A stretch of 23,987 nt of DNA from a virus: positions 1-23,987 of the IMG/VR virus record IMGVR_UViG_3300031565_000372. The stretch is one strand, 5' to 3'. Shown one piece after another: positions 14,355 to 21,787 of this stretch (the stretch's first letter is position 1; every line of letters begins with the position of its first letter). The translations under genes were made by a program, and so were the position numbers. Below the pieces are notes generated by a model. It was not told where the DNA came from. It saw nothing but the letters and a program-made list of their open reading frames with translations, and did no database searches.

Positions 14355-15011
14355 ATGTTTCAAATACATACTAGCGATGAGACTGTTTGGAAGGTTTGGA
14401 ATTGGTGTGTTGAGGCGTATCGAGAGTACGGACAAACACTTAAATTCCCAGAAGCTACCGACCCCACAAAAACATACCAATGGCGCTATGCTGCGAGACT
14501 TGCTAGAAAACTGGAAGAGTGGGAATTTGACGATCAAGCGAGCATCATCTTTATTCATTACGCAGCTCAATACGCCAAGGAGAAGAGGCTATTGCGGAAG
14601 GGACTTGCTGTATTCTTCCAAAGTAACACCTTAGATATTTGTTATGACCGTATTGATGGTAAATGCGAGGAAGTTGATCGTCATCTGGCACTACTTCGCC
14701 AGAATCGTGGCTTTCTCTTGGCCCGAGCCAATGGCAAATCGCTTACTGGTATATTGTTATCTCGTCCCGCACCCGATTCGTATTATAATATCGTCGAATG
14801 GTTTGAACGGCATTGTCTCAGCACTTTGTACATGGCAGTTTCGAAATCCTGTACGGTGGCTCTTTCACGGTTATCCAGGATTAGTCCCGAGCAGCATAGC
14901 TTATTACCCGGGAAAGCCGAATTGTTCTGTCTGCTGGGTAGTTCAACCGACAACATCACATTTAAAAAACAGGCAGCACAGATTTTAGGAAATGATTGGA
15001 GAACATTATGA
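14355..15011 (+). CDS. unrecognised protein translationally coupled to nrdJ
   Basis: The protein has 218 residues, with ATG at 14355; the region before it is AT-rich without a Shine-Dalgarno sequence. It is mainly helical, with a tryptophan-rich start (WKVWNWCVEAYREYG) and helices such as YQWRYAARLARKLEEWEFDD and ASIIFIHYAAQYAKEKRLL. No enzyme motif or membrane segment was seen. The last helix region contains several cysteines, but not in a zinc-site pattern. Its stop overlaps the ATG of the ribonucleotide reductase gene (ATGA at 15008-15011), and the reductase ribosome site lies inside this gene. It therefore probably belongs to the DNA replication or nucleotide block. Its function is unknown. 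Confidence 0.65.
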   Translation: MFQIHTSDETVWKVWNWCVEAYREYGQTLKFPEATDPTKTYQWRYAARLARKLEEWEFDDQASIIFIHYAAQYAKEKRLLRKGLAVFFQSNTLDICYDRIDGKCEEVDRHLALLRQNRGFLLARANGKSLTGILLSRPAPDSYYNIVEWFERHCLSTLYMAVSKSCTVALSRLSRISPEQHSLLPGKAELFCLLGSSTDNITFKKQAAQILGNDWRTL

Positions 15012-17191
15012 TAAAAACTGAGAACCTTGTCAAAGACTGTTTCTCGAGAATACTCAATAATAATGATGGTAATCAGAACGGGGCCAACAAACCATTTAAA
15101 TTAGACAAGGATTTCTTAAGCGGATTTCATGGCCAAAAACCCCAATTTGGGTTTGGTGGACTTGGTGAATTCGTTTTCTACCGTACTTATTCCCGCCTAA
15201 AGCCAGATGGCTCAAAAGAAAGTTTCGCTGATGTTTTGCAGCGGGTTACCGAAGGCGTCTATGAAATTCAACGGCAGCATTGTTATAAACAGCATGTACC
15301 GTGGACACGCAGCAAGGCTCAAGTATCGGCCCAAGAGATGTTCCAGCGGATGTGGGATTTCAAATTTTTGCCACCCGGGCGTGGTCTCTGGATGATGGGT
15401 ACCGAGTTCATGTGGGAGCGTGGCGGAGCCGCCTTACAGAACTGTGGGTATATATCCACCGAGAATATTGATAAAGACTTAGCAGAGCCGTTTCATTTTG
15501 TAATTGATATGGCTATGTTAGGAGTGGGTGTTGGTTTTGATACACGAGGTGCCGGAAAAGTTGTTATATGTCCACCCAAAGAATTTGATACTACATTTAC
15601 TGTGTCTGATTCTCGCGAAAGTTGGGCCGATTCTACGAAAGTTCTTATTGAATCATATACCGATCGCTCTAGGTTTGGTCGTGTTGAGTTTGATTATAGT
15701 CAGGTGCGACCTGCTGGAACACCCATAAAAGGGTTTGGTGGCGAGGCTTCCGGCCCCGGTATTTTGCGCGAATTACATGAGTCATTGCGAGGGTTATTTG
15801 ATAGTATTTTGCAAAGGAAAGATCACCATTTTACTAGTGTTGATATCGTAGATGCAATGAATTTGATAGGTAGGTGTATAGTTGCCGGGAATGTGAGGCG
15901 CGTAGCACTTTTGGCCCTAGGCGATGGGTGTGATGATGAATATTGTAATATTAAGAACTATTTAAGGGGACTTACTGATTATGAGGCAAAACGTTTTAAG
16001 GAAGTTGCCGATTCGTTATGTGCGAAATCAGTAATCTTTGCAACAGTTAAAGATTTTGAAGGTTGTAATATTAATCACGATCTACTGAAGCGTTCCATAG
16101 AGGTATGGAATGCTTGTAATAATCATAGATGGACATCTAACAATGCCATTTTTGCCCGGGTTGGCATGGATTATTCTGATATGGCAAAGAGGACCGCCGT
16201 CAATGGTGAACCAAGCTATATATGGCTTGATAATATTCAGAACTATGGAAGATTTATTGACGGCAAGCAGGCAACATCAGACAAAGCCACAGGTGTGAAC
16301 CCTTGTGCTGAAATGGCGCTTGAATCTCACGAATTATGCACATTGTGTGAGACATTTCCATCTCGGCACGACAATGTTGAGGATTATTATAGGACACTGA
16401 AGTTTGCATATCTCTACGCGAAGACCACAACGTTGCTACCAACTCATAATGCGAAAACCAATTCTATCATGCTTCGCAATAGAAGAATCGGTTTGTCGCA
16501 GAGTGGTATTGTTGAAGCCTTTAAGATTTTTGGTAGACGGACCGTACTGCGCGATTTTTGTGACAATGGCTACAAAGTTGTGAGGTCTTGGGACAATATC
16601 TATTCTGATTGGTTATGCTGTCCAAAATCCAATAAAGTCACAACTGTTAAGCCAAGTGGTTCACTGAGTTTGGTTGTTGGAGTTTTTGCTGGTATACACT
16701 ATTCCCTAGCGCCATCACGCAGCTATTGGCGTAGGGTTAGGATTTCAGCCAATAGTTCCATGATTAAGTCTTTGGTAGATGCTGGTTATGATATTGAGCA
16801 GGCTATTAATGACCCAGGCACCGTGATCGTGAAATTTGGTATTAATTCCTATACAAAAACTATTAGTGAGGTTTCAATATGGGAACAAGTCAAAAATAGT
16901 GTAGACTATCAGCGATTTTGGAGTGATAATAGTGTCAGCACAACTATCCAATTTAAAAAAGAAGAGGCCCACCAAATTGTTGGTGTTTTAGAGGCTTTTG
17001 ATGCTGAACTAAAGGCGATAAGTTTCTTACCCATAGAAGACCATGGATACGCCCAACCACCCTACGAGCAAGCAACAAAAAAAGAAGTCGACGAATACAA
17101 TAGTAGGTTAAAAGACATTGATTTTATGGGGCTCGACGAAGATGCAATTGGAGAAAAGCTCTGCAGCAACGATGTGTGTCAGGTTTATTGA
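15008..17191 (+). CDS. nrdJ: class II (adenosylcobalamin-dependent) ribonucleoside-triphosphate reductase, monomeric RTPR type
   Basis: The protein has 727 residues. I chose ATG 15008, which follows TTGGAG at 6-bp spacing and overlaps the previous stop; a TTG 12 bases earlier is also in frame. It converts ribonucleotides to deoxyribonucleotides for phage DNA synthesis, using a B12 radical. It matches the Lactobacillus leichmannii RTPR block by block: LQNCGYIS (C146), FGGEASGPG, WTSNNAIF, NPCAEMAL with the thiyl cysteine C433 and E435, ELC with the partner cysteine C444, and FWSDNSVSTTIQF. The tail C719-x4-C724 is the re-reducing pair. The 11-residue spacing C433-C444 equals that of C408-C419 in the bacterial enzyme. 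The length is close to the reference (739 residues). All catalytic cysteines are present and no intein interrupts it. The next gene starts inside its last 20 bases. Confidence 0.93.
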   Translation: MIKTENLVKDCFSRILNNNDGNQNGANKPFKLDKDFLSGFHGQKPQFGFGGLGEFVFYRTYSRLKPDGSKESFADVLQRVTEGVYEIQRQHCYKQHVPWTRSKAQVSAQEMFQRMWDFKFLPPGRGLWMMGTEFMWERGGAALQNCGYISTENIDKDLAEPFHFVIDMAMLGVGVGFDTRGAGKVVICPPKEFDTTFTVSDSRESWADSTKVLIESYTDRSRFGRVEFDYSQVRPAGTPIKGFGGEASGPGILRELHESLRGLFDSILQRKDHHFTSVDIVDAMNLIGRCIVAGNVRRVALLALGDGCDDEYCNIKNYLRGLTDYEAKRFKEVADSLCAKSVIFATVKDFEGCNINHDLLKRSIEVWNACNNHRWTSNNAIFARVGMDYSDMAKRTAVNGEPSYIWLDNIQNYGRFIDGKQATSDKATGVNPCAEMALESHELCTLCETFPSRHDNVEDYYRTLKFAYLYAKTTTLLPTHNAKTNSIMLRNRRIGLSQSGIVEAFKIFGRRTVLRDFCDNGYKVVRSWDNIYSDWLCCPKSNKVTTVKPSGSLSLVVGVFAGIHYSLAPSRSYWRRVRISANSSMIKSLVDAGYDIEQAINDPGTVIVKFGINSYTKTISEVSIWEQVKNSVDYQRFWSDNSVSTTIQFKKEEAHQIVGVLEAFDAELKAISFLPIEDHGYAQPPYEQATKKEVDEYNSRLKDIDFMGLDEDAIGEKLCSNDVCQVY

Positions 17192-18815
17192 TAAAGCTTC
17201 TGTTATCCACGGTGATAAGTACGACTATTCTGAAGTAGAATATATAAATAGCCGAACCAAAGTCAAAATAATCTGTGCCAAGCATGGAGCATTTTGGATA
17301 ACTCCGAAATGCCATATTCAAAACAGAGGATGCAAAGAATGCTGGTTAGAATCTTTACGCGATAACCAAGAATCAATAATTAACAAATTTATATCTGTGC
17401 ATAGTGGCAAATATGACTATTCTAAAGTCAAGTTCGTAGACAGACACACAAAAGTATTAATCATATGCAAGAAACATGGCACATTTGGCCAGACACCATT
17501 GATACATGTGCGTGGTCATGGGTGCACTAAGTGTGCAAATACGTCAAAACGTGGTATTAAAAGAAGTTATACCAGCATGGTTTCTGCTGCCAACAAAGTA
17601 CACGCTGCTTACTATACCTATGGTAATATTATTAGGGCAGATAACAGAACTATAATAGATATAATCTGTCCCGTACATGGAATTTTTAGACAGGATATGT
17701 GCATGCACTTGTCTGGCAGAGGCTGCAAAAAGTGTAGCACAGTCAGAACCTCCAACGTAACGAGACGCACAGACGCTATTTTCCTACAGTTGGCCACCAA
17801 GGTACACGGTGATACCTTTGATTACTCTCTGGTGGATTATATAAATTGTAAGACGCCGGTGATTATAATTTGTCGTGTCCATGGGCCATTCAATCAAACA
17901 CCATCAGATCATCTGCGAGGGGCCGGATGTCGATCTTGTAGCCTTATCGTGTCTAATGGCCACCGCGAGCTATTGAAGCTATTGCCATCAGATGTTGATT
18001 ATATTGTCAATGATAGATCGGTTATAGCACCGAAAGAATTGGATATATACATTCCAAAATACAAACTTGGCATAGAACATCATGGATATTATTGGCATAG
18101 TTACAATCGTAGAGAGTCATTCAAAGAGAAATATGCGCATTCTACCAAACACGATATGGCAAAAGCTGCTGGTCTAAAATTATTACAAGTGTTTGATTTT
18201 GAAACTAATCGTGTTGACATTTTAAAATCGATGCTTGCCCACCATTGTAATAGGTCCCGCAGAATACATGCTCGCAAATGCCAATTTGAAGTTATTAATT
18301 CGAAGGATGCTGGCAACTTTTTCAGAGCGCATCATTTGCAAGGACATAGGCCAACACAATTTTATGCTGGCTTAGTGTTCGATAATAAATTGTGCTGTGC
18401 TATTTCCTTGAGCAAGAAAGATAATGAGTGTGAAATAATACGATTTGCGACTATTTTCAATCATTATGTTGTTGGTGGCTTCAGTAAATTGCTTACCAGA
18501 AGTATGGACATATTAAGCCCACGGGCAGTTACCACTTTTGCTGATAGAAGATTTTCAAATGGAAATGTCTACTTAAAAAATGGTTTTCGTTTAAGCAAAA
18601 TAACAGCACCAGGATATAAATATATAAGTAGTAACGGTAAGGTGTTGTTGTCCAGATATCAATGTCAAAAGGGTAAGTTACATAAGCTTCTGGGAGATAG
18701 ATTTGATAACAATCTTTCTGAGTGCGAGAATATGTTTTGGTGTGGTTATAGGCGGTTGTGGGATGCTGGACATTATAAATTCCAGAAGTGTTTGCCCCAA
18801 TCGTGTCGTATTTGA
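17172..18815 (+). CDS. free-standing homing endonuclease: four zinc-ribbon repeats, Vsr-like (EDxHD) nuclease, GNAT-like C-domain
   Basis: The protein has about 547 residues. I chose ATG 17172 because the first repeat begins right after it; ATG 17142 and TTG 17118 are also in frame. Four repeats of 50-60 residues fill residues 1-255. Each follows HG/DYS...(V/I)IIC..HG.F.QTP..H..G.GC..C and has likely zinc ligands, although repeat 3 is divergent. Next comes a Vsr-like nuclease (about 265-360) with KELDIYIPKYKLGIEHHGYY, WHS and KHDMAKAAGLKLLQVFDFE, the E/D..H pattern of EDxHD homing enzymes. The last 170 residues (RFATIFNHYVVGGFSKLLTR, TTFADRRFSNGNVYLKNGF) resemble the acetyltransferase-like domain found on phage T-even endonucleases. 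It sits between nrdJ and the helicase, as free-standing homing genes often do. It is AT-richer than its neighbours, which suggests later arrival. The target is probably a nearby gene. Confidence 0.8.
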   Translation: MCVRFIDKASVIHGDKYDYSEVEYINSRTKVKIICAKHGAFWITPKCHIQNRGCKECWLESLRDNQESIINKFISVHSGKYDYSKVKFVDRHTKVLIICKKHGTFGQTPLIHVRGHGCTKCANTSKRGIKRSYTSMVSAANKVHAAYYTYGNIIRADNRTIIDIICPVHGIFRQDMCMHLSGRGCKKCSTVRTSNVTRRTDAIFLQLATKVHGDTFDYSLVDYINCKTPVIIICRVHGPFNQTPSDHLRGAGCRSCSLIVSNGHRELLKLLPSDVDYIVNDRSVIAPKELDIYIPKYKLGIEHHGYYWHSYNRRESFKEKYAHSTKHDMAKAAGLKLLQVFDFETNRVDILKSMLAHHCNRSRRIHARKCQFEVINSKDAGNFFRAHHLQGHRPTQFYAGLVFDNKLCCAISLSKKDNECEIIRFATIFNHYVVGGFSKLLTRSMDILSPRAVTTFADRRFSNGNVYLKNGFRLSKITAPGYKYISSNGKVLLSRYQCQKGKLHKLLGDRFDNNLSECENMFWCGYRRLWDAGHYKFQKCLPQSCRI

Positions 18816-18820
18816 AGGTT

Positions 18821-21787
18821 ATGATAGCACGCCTCACGAATCAATCGATCTATTTCGATAACATCACCGTCTGGGAAGAGGAAATTATCTCTGAGCGGTT
18901 TAGCGCAGAGAACCCAAATGCGCGGTATATCGATACTTCTGCCACCGCTTGGGATGGTGTTTATCGGAAGTATAACAGGACACACAAACGATTGGCCAGA
19001 CCGTTCTTGGCTGAGTTGCGGCTCTTGTGTAAGCAGAAAGATCTGTCTCTTCTGGTTAAGGATGAACGCGAGCCAAGCAAGTATCAACCACTATCACCGG
19101 ACGAGATTAATGCTGATTTTCTGCCCGGGATCACTTTAAAAGATTTTCAGATTGATGCCATAAGGAAGGTTTGCACCACCGAATGTGGAGTTGTATCAAT
19201 AACTACAGGTGGGGGAAAATCAGAGATAATGGCTGCAATATGTAAGGTAATGAACTGTCCCACAGTCATTATCGCCGAGCAAATAGTGGTTATTGATCAG
19301 CTTAGGGATCGTTTGGATCTTAGGGATGTCTGTAGTGAGCCCGGACTCTTTTATGCTGGGAAGATGCCTACTGGTGAGTTGATCATTATTGGCTCAATTC
19401 AGTCGCTTGTGTTGCCTAAGAAAAAGCCGGAAAAACCAAGCAGGGAGAATTATAAGGATACAGAATCGTCGACAGCGGCCCAGAAATTTAAACAAGCTCA
19501 AAAGCGATATGCAGCATCGTTGAAGGGATATCAGAGTAGGACCAAGAAGGCGCGGGCTTTGCACAAACTCATTGGTAAATGTGAGATGATACTTGTGGAT
19601 GAATGTGTTGATGAAGATACTTATATAAATACTGAGTCTGGATTAATCAGGGCAGTCGAGTTAGCAGATCGTGTCGAACACGGTATTGACAGTAGAGTTA
19701 TGGTCAATGGACATGCTTATTCTATCACTGGCATATCTAAATCCAGGCAAGAGGCATATTGCATAACTACGTCTACTGGCAGGAAGTTGATTGGTTCTGC
19801 CAACCATTTATGTGCCACATATGTAGATGGTTTTCGTGTTGACAGGCACATTATATCATTGCAGTATGGTGATGCATTATTATCTTGTAGGAATAATCTA
19901 AATCCAGTTTTTGACGATGGCTTTGGTTGCTGGTATGATTTGGGACTGTTTGTGGGTGATGGGCATATGCTTAACAATCGTCAAGTTAAATTCGGCGTCA
20001 GGAAAGATTGTGCAGATTGGATTGCGTGGTCTAAGATTGCTAGTGTGCGATGGTGTGGTACTAGTAGCGCTAAATATAATAAGCGTGGCGATTTAGTATT
20101 GCGATTACATGTTCCAGAGTTGTGTTCTTGGCTGCGTGAGCTTGGATTTACACCTGGTAGGAAAATGGGTTCCATAGACCCCAAATTTGAGTTCACCTCA
20201 TTATCTGCGATAATCAATTTTTTAAGAGGATTATTTGACTCGGATGGTTCGATAGGTGTGGGCCGTGCTGCTGTGGTGTCTATAGATTTAAAACTTATGG
20301 AATTTGTACAAATATTGTTATCTAGGATTGGTATTATGTCGTCTATTGGTTTGTCTGGCCGAGCTAAACAGGCGAATCATCATGATCAGTGGTTGGTTCG
20401 AGTAACGGGTGCAGAATTTGTTAAATTTATGCATCTTGTATCGTTTGGATTCAGCAGGAAACGATATAAGATGCATGAGTATATTAATATTAAAGATAGC
20501 AACAGAATGATTGATCCTAAGCCATATTTCGAGAGATGGCTTAAATCTGGCATAAAGAAATGTTGCCTAGCAAAGTCTATAGGGGTTGGAGATTTGACTT
20601 GCATTAGAGGCAAGATTAGTCTAAATCGGTTATTGCAATGGCAGGATTTATTGGCAGGTCTTTCGTCGATAATTATAGATGATTATTACACTGCTAAAAC
20701 ATTACTTGGTATATCATATGATAAGATAAGTAAACACAGTCATATGCCAATTATGACTGTGTATAACCATACGAAAAGAGGAGATAATACTTGGAAACAT
20801 CTTGTCGAGACAATTCAGTCAAAGCTGGCCATACCTATTGTAGATCACAATTTGGATGGTTATGGGATAGAGTTTGTTCGTGATGTGTCATATGTTGGTG
20901 TTAAAAATCTTATTGATTTTCAAGTAGATGATGTAGAAAGTTTTGAAGCTAATGGATTGCTTGTTCATAATTGTGATCTGGCCGTGGGAAATACCTACAA
21001 AAATTTATTTCGTCACTGGTTTAAGGGTAGACGACGAATCGGCTTTACCGGTACCCCATATGATGATTGTAAACCTGTGCAGAGGCTGATCTTGAATGAG
21101 CACTTGGGTTCTGTCATTTACCAGCAGAATCGTATCCAGGTTGAAGAAACTGGTTTAATTGTTCCGCTTGAGTATTATATGCTTGCTTTTGGGGAGGATG
21201 GAAATCCAAAGGACTCGTCTGCCTATGACATTGCGCTTGATGATTGGATGATTTATAATGAGGATTTTCATCGGCTGGTGAAAGCTATTTGCAATAGGCA
21301 TCCCGATGAGGGCACACTTGTTCTGGTGGAGCGACACGATCTTGGACATGCTTTGACTGCTCTAATTCCGGACTCTCAGTTTGTATATGGAGATACCCCC
21401 AAGAAGAAGAGACCCGGGATGCTTCAAGCTTTCGAAAGGCGCGATCGAAAGGTACTTATAGGTGGGAAGAATGTTCGGCGAGGGTTAGATCTTAGTGGTG
21501 GTTGTGAGAATTTAATCCTTGCGACTGGGGGTAAGCTGGTATCTGAATTTGATCAGCGTATTGGGCGGGCAAGAAGGCAAAATGAGCGCGGCAAAGCGAG
21601 AGTATATGATTTTCTTTTTTTGTGTAATAAGTATCTCTACGCACATTCGAGGAATCGTCTTAAGGCTGCAGTTGCCATGGGCTACAAGACCCAAGTTGTA
21701 TTCCGTAATGGTACCATAGATGGCGAAAAGTTTGTCAAATCAAGGTTCCGCCGTCCTAGGATCTCAGCCAGTAGTAGCACTGGATGA
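18821..21787 (+). CDS. uvsW: UvsW-like SF2 DNA helicase interrupted by an intein
   Basis: The precursor has 988 residues, giving 532 after removal of a 456-residue intein. I chose ATG 18821, 5 bases after the endonuclease stop with GAAGG just before it. Residues 1-85 resemble the small N-terminal domain of T4 UvsW (ARYIDTSATAWDGVYRKYN versus its WDG..YN pattern). Walker A is TTGGGKSE (about residue 127) and the Ia-like stretch is TVIIAEQIVVIDQLRD. Motif II is split: LVDE at 258-261 joins CDLAVGNTY after splicing, giving DECD. The motif III-like element is GFTGTP (about 741) and motif VI is QRIGRARR (about 912). UvsW-type helicases unwind branched and R-loop DNA in phage recombination and late replication. 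The helicase should be inactive until splicing joins the DEC box. The sigma gene starts 68 bases before its stop, in another frame. Confidence 0.85.
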   Translation: MIARLTNQSIYFDNITVWEEEIISERFSAENPNARYIDTSATAWDGVYRKYNRTHKRLARPFLAELRLLCKQKDLSLLVKDEREPSKYQPLSPDEINADFLPGITLKDFQIDAIRKVCTTECGVVSITTGGGKSEIMAAICKVMNCPTVIIAEQIVVIDQLRDRLDLRDVCSEPGLFYAGKMPTGELIIIGSIQSLVLPKKKPEKPSRENYKDTESSTAAQKFKQAQKRYAASLKGYQSRTKKARALHKLIGKCEMILVDECVDEDTYINTESGLIRAVELADRVEHGIDSRVMVNGHAYSITGISKSRQEAYCITTSTGRKLIGSANHLCATYVDGFRVDRHIISLQYGDALLSCRNNLNPVFDDGFGCWYDLGLFVGDGHMLNNRQVKFGVRKDCADWIAWSKIASVRWCGTSSAKYNKRGDLVLRLHVPELCSWLRELGFTPGRKMGSIDPKFEFTSLSAIINFLRGLFDSDGSIGVGRAAVVSIDLKLMEFVQILLSRIGIMSSIGLSGRAKQANHHDQWLVRVTGAEFVKFMHLVSFGFSRKRYKMHEYINIKDSNRMIDPKPYFERWLKSGIKKCCLAKSIGVGDLTCIRGKISLNRLLQWQDLLAGLSSIIIDDYYTAKTLLGISYDKISKHSHMPIMTVYNHTKRGDNTWKHLVETIQSKLAIPIVDHNLDGYGIEFVRDVSYVGVKNLIDFQVDDVESFEANGLLVHNCDLAVGNTYKNLFRHWFKGRRRIGFTGTPYDDCKPVQRLILNEHLGSVIYQQNRIQVEETGLIVPLEYYMLAFGEDGNPKDSSAYDIALDDWMIYNEDFHRLVKAICNRHPDEGTLVLVERHDLGHALTALIPDSQFVYGDTPKKKRPGMLQAFERRDRKVLIGGKNVRRGLDLSGGCENLILATGGKLVSEFDQRIGRARRQNERGKARVYDFLFLCNKYLYAHSRNRLKAAVAMGYKTQVVFRNGTIDGEKFVKSRFRRPRISASSSTG
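19604..20971 (+). mobile_element. LAGLIDADG intein in helicase motif II
   Basis: This is an in-frame insert of 456 residues. It starts with C (CVDEDTYINTESGLIRAVEL) and ends with GLLVHN directly before extein C, giving the Cys/His-Asn/Cys splice chemistry of class 1 inteins. The block B-like element is GSANHLCATYVDGF. Two dodecapeptide nuclease motifs are visible: DLGLFVGDGHML (about intein residue 109) and FLRGLFDSDGSIG (about 204). The block F/G end is LIDFQVDDVESFEANGLL then VHN. Both nuclease acidic residues (D in VGDG and in DSDG) are kept, so the homing enzyme may be active. Removal restores LVDE-CDLA, the helicase DECD box. A late helix-turn-helix-like stretch (YDKISKHSHMPIMTVYNHTK) may help bind DNA. 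Confidence 0.9.
20734..20762. repeat. 11-bp perfect inverted repeat inside the helicase intein
   Basis: ACACAGTCATA (20734-20744), seven bases TGCCAAT, then TATGACTGTGT (20752-20762) are exact reverse complements. The repeat falls in the stretch coding SKHSHMPIMTVYNHT. No T-run follows, so it is not a classical terminator. Confidence 0.75.

Follow-up and report, generated by a model that had tools for sequence, protein, structure and literature searches.

The window, that is, the whole stretch of 23,987 nucleotides analysed here (IMG/VR virus record IMGVR_UViG_3300031565_000372), contains an uninterrupted open reading frame at 17172-18815 on the plus strand, the product of which has 547 amino acids. 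It lies between two genes on the same strand, an upstream nrdJ-type class II ribonucleotide reductase gene (14996-17191), the last 20 nucleotides of which overlap the start of the open reading frame (17172-17191), and a downstream gene encoding an intein-containing SF2 helicase (18821-21787). The domain search with the 547 residues that had been advised in the preliminary description gave PHROGs matches to phrog_559 (E 1e-105), phrog_3339 (E 1.1e-77) and, over four stretches, phrog_4605, whereas the Pfam matches were weak (Vsr, E 0.043; DUF4379, E 0.42) and did not include DUF723. The NCBIfam search gave no match with the protein, and PADLOC gave an HEase match (E 3.5e-4). The domains were assigned from the matches of its relatives and from PHROGs.

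Residue conservation was read from an alignment of 42 members, the relatives being 32-40 % identical to the window protein, and an AF2 model was built on the same alignment (mean pLDDT 88.3, pTM 0.56). The model consisted of four alpha-beta-beta repeats, a nuclease domain (residues 262-358) and an alpha/beta GNAT domain (residues 363-541), in agreement with the architecture first proposed; the relative orientation of these parts is unreliable.

The putative zinc repeats, which agree in number and in shared motif with what had been claimed, are four and are located at 17172-17354 (residues 1-61; ligands C35, H38, C54 and C57), 17367-17549 (residues 66-126; C99, H102, C118 and C121), 17568-17762 (residues 133-197; C166, H169, C185 and C188) and 17772-17942 (residues 201-257; C234, H237, C253 and C256), all on the plus strand. 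Each has the ligand set C-x2-H ... C-x2-C, and the ligand columns of the 42-member alignment were invariant in repeats 1, 3 and 4 and at least 90 % conserved in repeat 2, a level of conservation which, as judged from the alignment, is beyond chance. The third repeat, already noticed as divergent, was an outlier in its pairwise scores (96-98, compared with 130-142 among the other repeats) and kept all four ligands. Pfam domains DUF723 and DUF4379 were found in 39 and 38, respectively, of the 42 aligned sequences, with the window protein itself below the cut-off; in these relatives the repeats are of the DUF723/DUF4379/CapR type. The best repeat-to-repeat matches between proteins were nearly independent of repeat position, and positional orthology of the repeats was rejected for this reason; the position-independence may be a result of saturation, and alone it is no proof of shuffling. 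Matches of the full model in BFVD included proteins of giant viruses (mimivirus R892, Terrestrivirus and Barrevirus), suggesting that the zinc repeats also occur there.

The Vsr/EDxHD-type nuclease domain (17955-18245, plus strand, residues 262-358) contains the residues E289, D291, E302, H309 and K326. A profile of repeat 4 and the nuclease had one clear match among solved structures, 3r3p, the catalytic domain of I-Bth0305I (E 1.5e-6), and the same structure ranked first when a separate model of this region was used in Foldseek. In VIA-align, this model gave Z scores of 11.6 with 3hrl, 11.3 with 3r3p and 10.6 with Vsr (1cw0). The Vsr-type cutter recognized in the preliminary description is, by profile and fold, a homologue of I-Bth0305I, the solved EDxHD enzyme. 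Residues D291, E302, G305, H309 and K326 were invariant in all 42 members and E289 was present in 40; the fold match implies that the active-site residues cluster in space.

The tail, suspected earlier to be GNAT-like, forms a Mom-homologous GNAT-fold domain (18258-18794, plus strand, residues 363-541). GNAT structures matched it with VIA Z scores of up to 14.5 over residues 368-547 and a Foldseek E value of 6e-6, and the structure of the S124A mutant of phage Mu Mom (8bv8) gave a Z score of 13.3. Pfam Mom was matched at E ≤0.05 by 20 of the 42 aligned members, and hhalign of the tail profile against 11 phage Moms gave a probability of 98.7 (E 2.2e-16). By homology, the tail is descended from a Mom-type GNAT. 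Counterparts of H58, E108, R111, D149 and Y159 of Mom are mostly kept in the tail family, that of D149 in 38 of 42 members, with Asn in three T-even relatives (FL23, AM101 and RPN226). Residues Y59, N121 and E123, invariant or nearly so in the 11 Moms, are absent from the members aligned here (42/42). As none of these 42 has either the N-x-E-S loop of Mom or the Tyr after the His, the tail is unlikely to be a Mom enzyme, and Mom chemistry is unsupported. At the position of S124, mutation of which is described as inactive in the title of 8bv8, there is Ser in 21 members, including the window protein, and Gly in 16. The acyl-CoA loop, G-x-G/A in GNATs, has A or G in 36 members, and the window protein (G-G-F) is one of four with Phe.

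Being conserved, the tail probably matters. With H388, R424, D458 and Y467 each kept by 38-41 of the 42 members, an enzymatic role is still conceivable. For a domain which is the constant partner of the nuclease and has lost the diagnostic residues of Mom, we infer an architectural or DNA-binding role and not that of an acyltransferase. It seems rather unlikely that the Mom-derived domain has remained an acyltransferase that marks, by a chemistry other than that of Mom, the DNA bound by the zinc array. If it had, the homing endonuclease would itself provide protection or a mark for its site, and the selfish gene would mark its own allele while cutting those without a mark.

Gene-free loci were sought among viral contigs with related nrdJ genes, and nrdJ was followed by the same helicase in 20 contigs, several of them near-duplicates, with a gap of ≤530 nt in 18. 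In the nearest gene-free locus (L087), nrdJ abuts the helicase gene; identity was 60 % at the amino acid level for nrdJ and 71 % for the N-terminal part of the helicase, and the sequence TTATGATAGCACxCCTCACGAA around the helicase start is common to this locus and the window. The flanks of gene-free alleles, about 60-70 % identical in the nearest one, are too diverged to locate an insertion to the base or to tell gain from ancestral loss with certainty. A relative is also present at the same nrdJ/helicase junction in another contig (L115; 42 % identical), and in a tree of the nuclease-tail part it fell in the same small clade as the window protein, with moderate support. A scan of the viral contigs with the N-terminal part of the helicase gave nothing that was confirmed, and no DNA-level relatives were found in the phage collection.

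The overlap with nrdJ resembles the overlaps of 20-24 nt listed for segC, mobA and mobC of T4 in a study in which translational coupling was suggested for mobE (PMC2988022), and its 20 nt suggest that the window gene, too, may be expressed by translational coupling. Overlap with the upstream open reading frame was found in only 6 of 44 relatives, for which reason it was rejected as a hallmark of the family and is regarded as a local feature.

Matches to the family were found in 896 phage records, and the combination of domains, presented earlier as a rich architecture, is common, not rare. Some genomes have copies at up to 10-11 places, and other sites occupied by relatives include uvsX/recA, the interval between gp24 and gp23, the tail tube and baseplate genes. 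Among plasmids, 24 records were matched, mainly by the zinc repeats, none of the matches covering 80 %. Most repeat-bearing relatives have 2-7 repeats, usually four, by a simple motif count. Two syntenic loci with flanks of 96-98 % identity carry alleles with seven repeats (L043:3983-6196) and four repeats (L073/L074:3983-5632), about 860 nt in one corresponding in position to about 300 nt in the other. Elsewhere the whole N-terminal part is swapped: the relative at L042:1618-3168 shares 75 % with that of L047 in the nuclease-tail part, and its N-terminal part is DUF7487 without zinc repeats, while a relative in Paride has HTH units as its N-terminal part. These array alleles of different lengths at one locus and swapped N-termini agree with the modular change that had been suggested from the divergence of repeat 3, and they indicate that the nuclease and the GNAT tail are a constant unit with an exchangeable DNA-binding part. 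Exchangeable modules around a nuclease-tail core extend what was found for T5orf172 endonucleases (PMC10448857). The seven- and four-repeat loci are a natural pair for asking what the repeats recognise.

With the domains and their conserved residues, the gene-free arrangement, the mobile positions of the family and the exchange of modules around the nuclease-GNAT core observed, the gene very probably encodes a freestanding Hef-like homing endonuclease. The four zinc repeats would bind to a long stretch of DNA close to the nrdJ/helicase junction, alleles without the gene would be cut by the Vsr/EDxHD nuclease, and recombination repair from a gene-bearing phage would copy the gene in. A homing endonuclease had already been proposed in the preliminary description, and this fits both the comparison with gene-free sites and the Hef locus. 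The interval between nrdA and nrdB is the reported locus of Hef, described for phage U5 as an endonuclease which targets and cleaves nrdB (PMC2988022), and in E. coli phage FL23 a relative of the window protein (L132:1379-3013) lies between nrdA and nrdB, overlapping nrdA. By its locus and annotation, the FL23 protein appears to be Hef (F-PhiU5I-type). Taking FL23 as the representative of the T-even Hef, the two genes are alike in being freestanding beside ribonucleotide reductase genes and in encoding a homologous nuclease and Mom-like tail (37 % identity over both), and both proteins match phrog_559 and phrog_3339. They differ in that the FL23 protein has an unrelated N-terminal DNA-binding part, whereas the window protein has four zinc repeats and its gene has a class II nrdJ as a neighbour.

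Other known endonucleases share parts of this architecture. I-Bth0305I, compared through its catalytic domain (3r3p), has the same nuclease fold with sequence similarity but is intron-encoded, unlike the freestanding window gene with its Mom-like tail. Endonucleases with three to five CapR/DUF723/DUF4379-like repeats followed by an EDxHD/Vsr nuclease were described in phage group II introns in 2025 (PMC12350094); the order of zinc repeats and nuclease is that of the window protein, but they are located in introns and are described as ending with the nuclease, whereas the window gene is freestanding and its product continues into a GNAT tail. The T5orf172 homing endonuclease genes with CapR repeats (PMC10448857) have similarly repetitive, recombining zinc DNA-binding modules, together with a different nuclease domain and no Mom-like tail.

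The Mom homology of the tail (hhalign probability 98.7) is shared with Mom-REase fusions of jumbo phages, for which restriction-modification was proposed in a 2021 survey (PMC7824862). Read in that way, the window protein would be a single-chain momylating restriction-modification enzyme, its Mom domain marking the adenines of the phage and its REase cutting DNA without this mark. Five momylating enzymes were reported for PA5oct (PMC7824862), the window tail was matched at five places in every one of three PA5oct-like (Wroclawvirus) records, and the structures closest to the window model include a PA5oct protein with the name putative homing endonuclease; from the five places per record and this structural match, the PA5oct Mom-REase fusions and the PA5oct-like relatives of the window protein are very likely the same proteins, one family treated in two literatures. 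The window protein is, however, without the key loop of Mom: Y59, N121 and E123 have no counterpart in any of the 42 members, S124 is matched in only half of them, and D149 is replaced in the T-even relatives. The gene is also missing at the same junction in relatives, and the family has many loci, many copies per genome and swappable DNA-binding arrays. The optional presence at the site, the relative at the Hef locus, the number of copies and the absence of Mom residues speak for homing, and a restriction-modification enzyme is improbable.

Marginally less probable still is that the protein, as a CapR-like DNA-binding protein or nuclease, has been domesticated, has lost its mobility and serves the phage in regulation or as a weapon against competing phages. 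Repressors that arose by domestication of CapR-type zinc domains are known (PMC10448857), but the window protein keeps every invariant nuclease residue, and its arrangement and pattern of presence and absence are those of a mobile gene. That the gene is encoded in a self-splicing intron, as are related zinc-EDxHD endonucleases in group I and II introns of phages (PMC12350094), can be dismissed almost entirely, as both of its neighbours are intact genes, the nrdJ stop falls within it, and no Rfam intron was matched in either the window or 15 related loci.

The gene is accordingly filed as a Hef-like EDxHD homing endonuclease and not as a Mom enzyme, a kind of gene that has already been partly described. 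In print, this one protein family has been taken both for homing endonucleases and for momylating restriction enzymes. The gene-free sites support the homing reading, as do the Hef locus and the absence of Mom residues, and the annotations are worth correcting accordingly. In addition, the family offers a natural collection of DNA-binding parts, namely arrays of 2-7 zinc repeats, DUF7487 and HTH, that can be exchanged on a common nuclease core, and this could be of help in deciphering how these zinc modules read DNA.

Further insertions were observed around nrdJ and the helicase gene. In one contig (L089:7803-9755), about 2 kb of unrelated open reading frames separate the two genes, so this junction takes other insertions as well. 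In another (L100:10671-12518, minus strand), the helicase gene, its open reading frame split in two, is closely followed by a related endonuclease gene on the opposite strand. The intein of the window helicase (19604-20971, plus strand, 456 amino acids) has a LAGLIDADG domain and is inserted directly after LVDE of the Walker B motif, a site which is uninterrupted in the helicase of L087 (LVDECDLATSK). Several nrdJ relatives (L099, L101-L106 and L112-L115) have extra-long open reading frames of 1091-3046 amino acids, the longest in L112 (3046 amino acids), which suggests several inteins or other in-frame insertions in the reductase.
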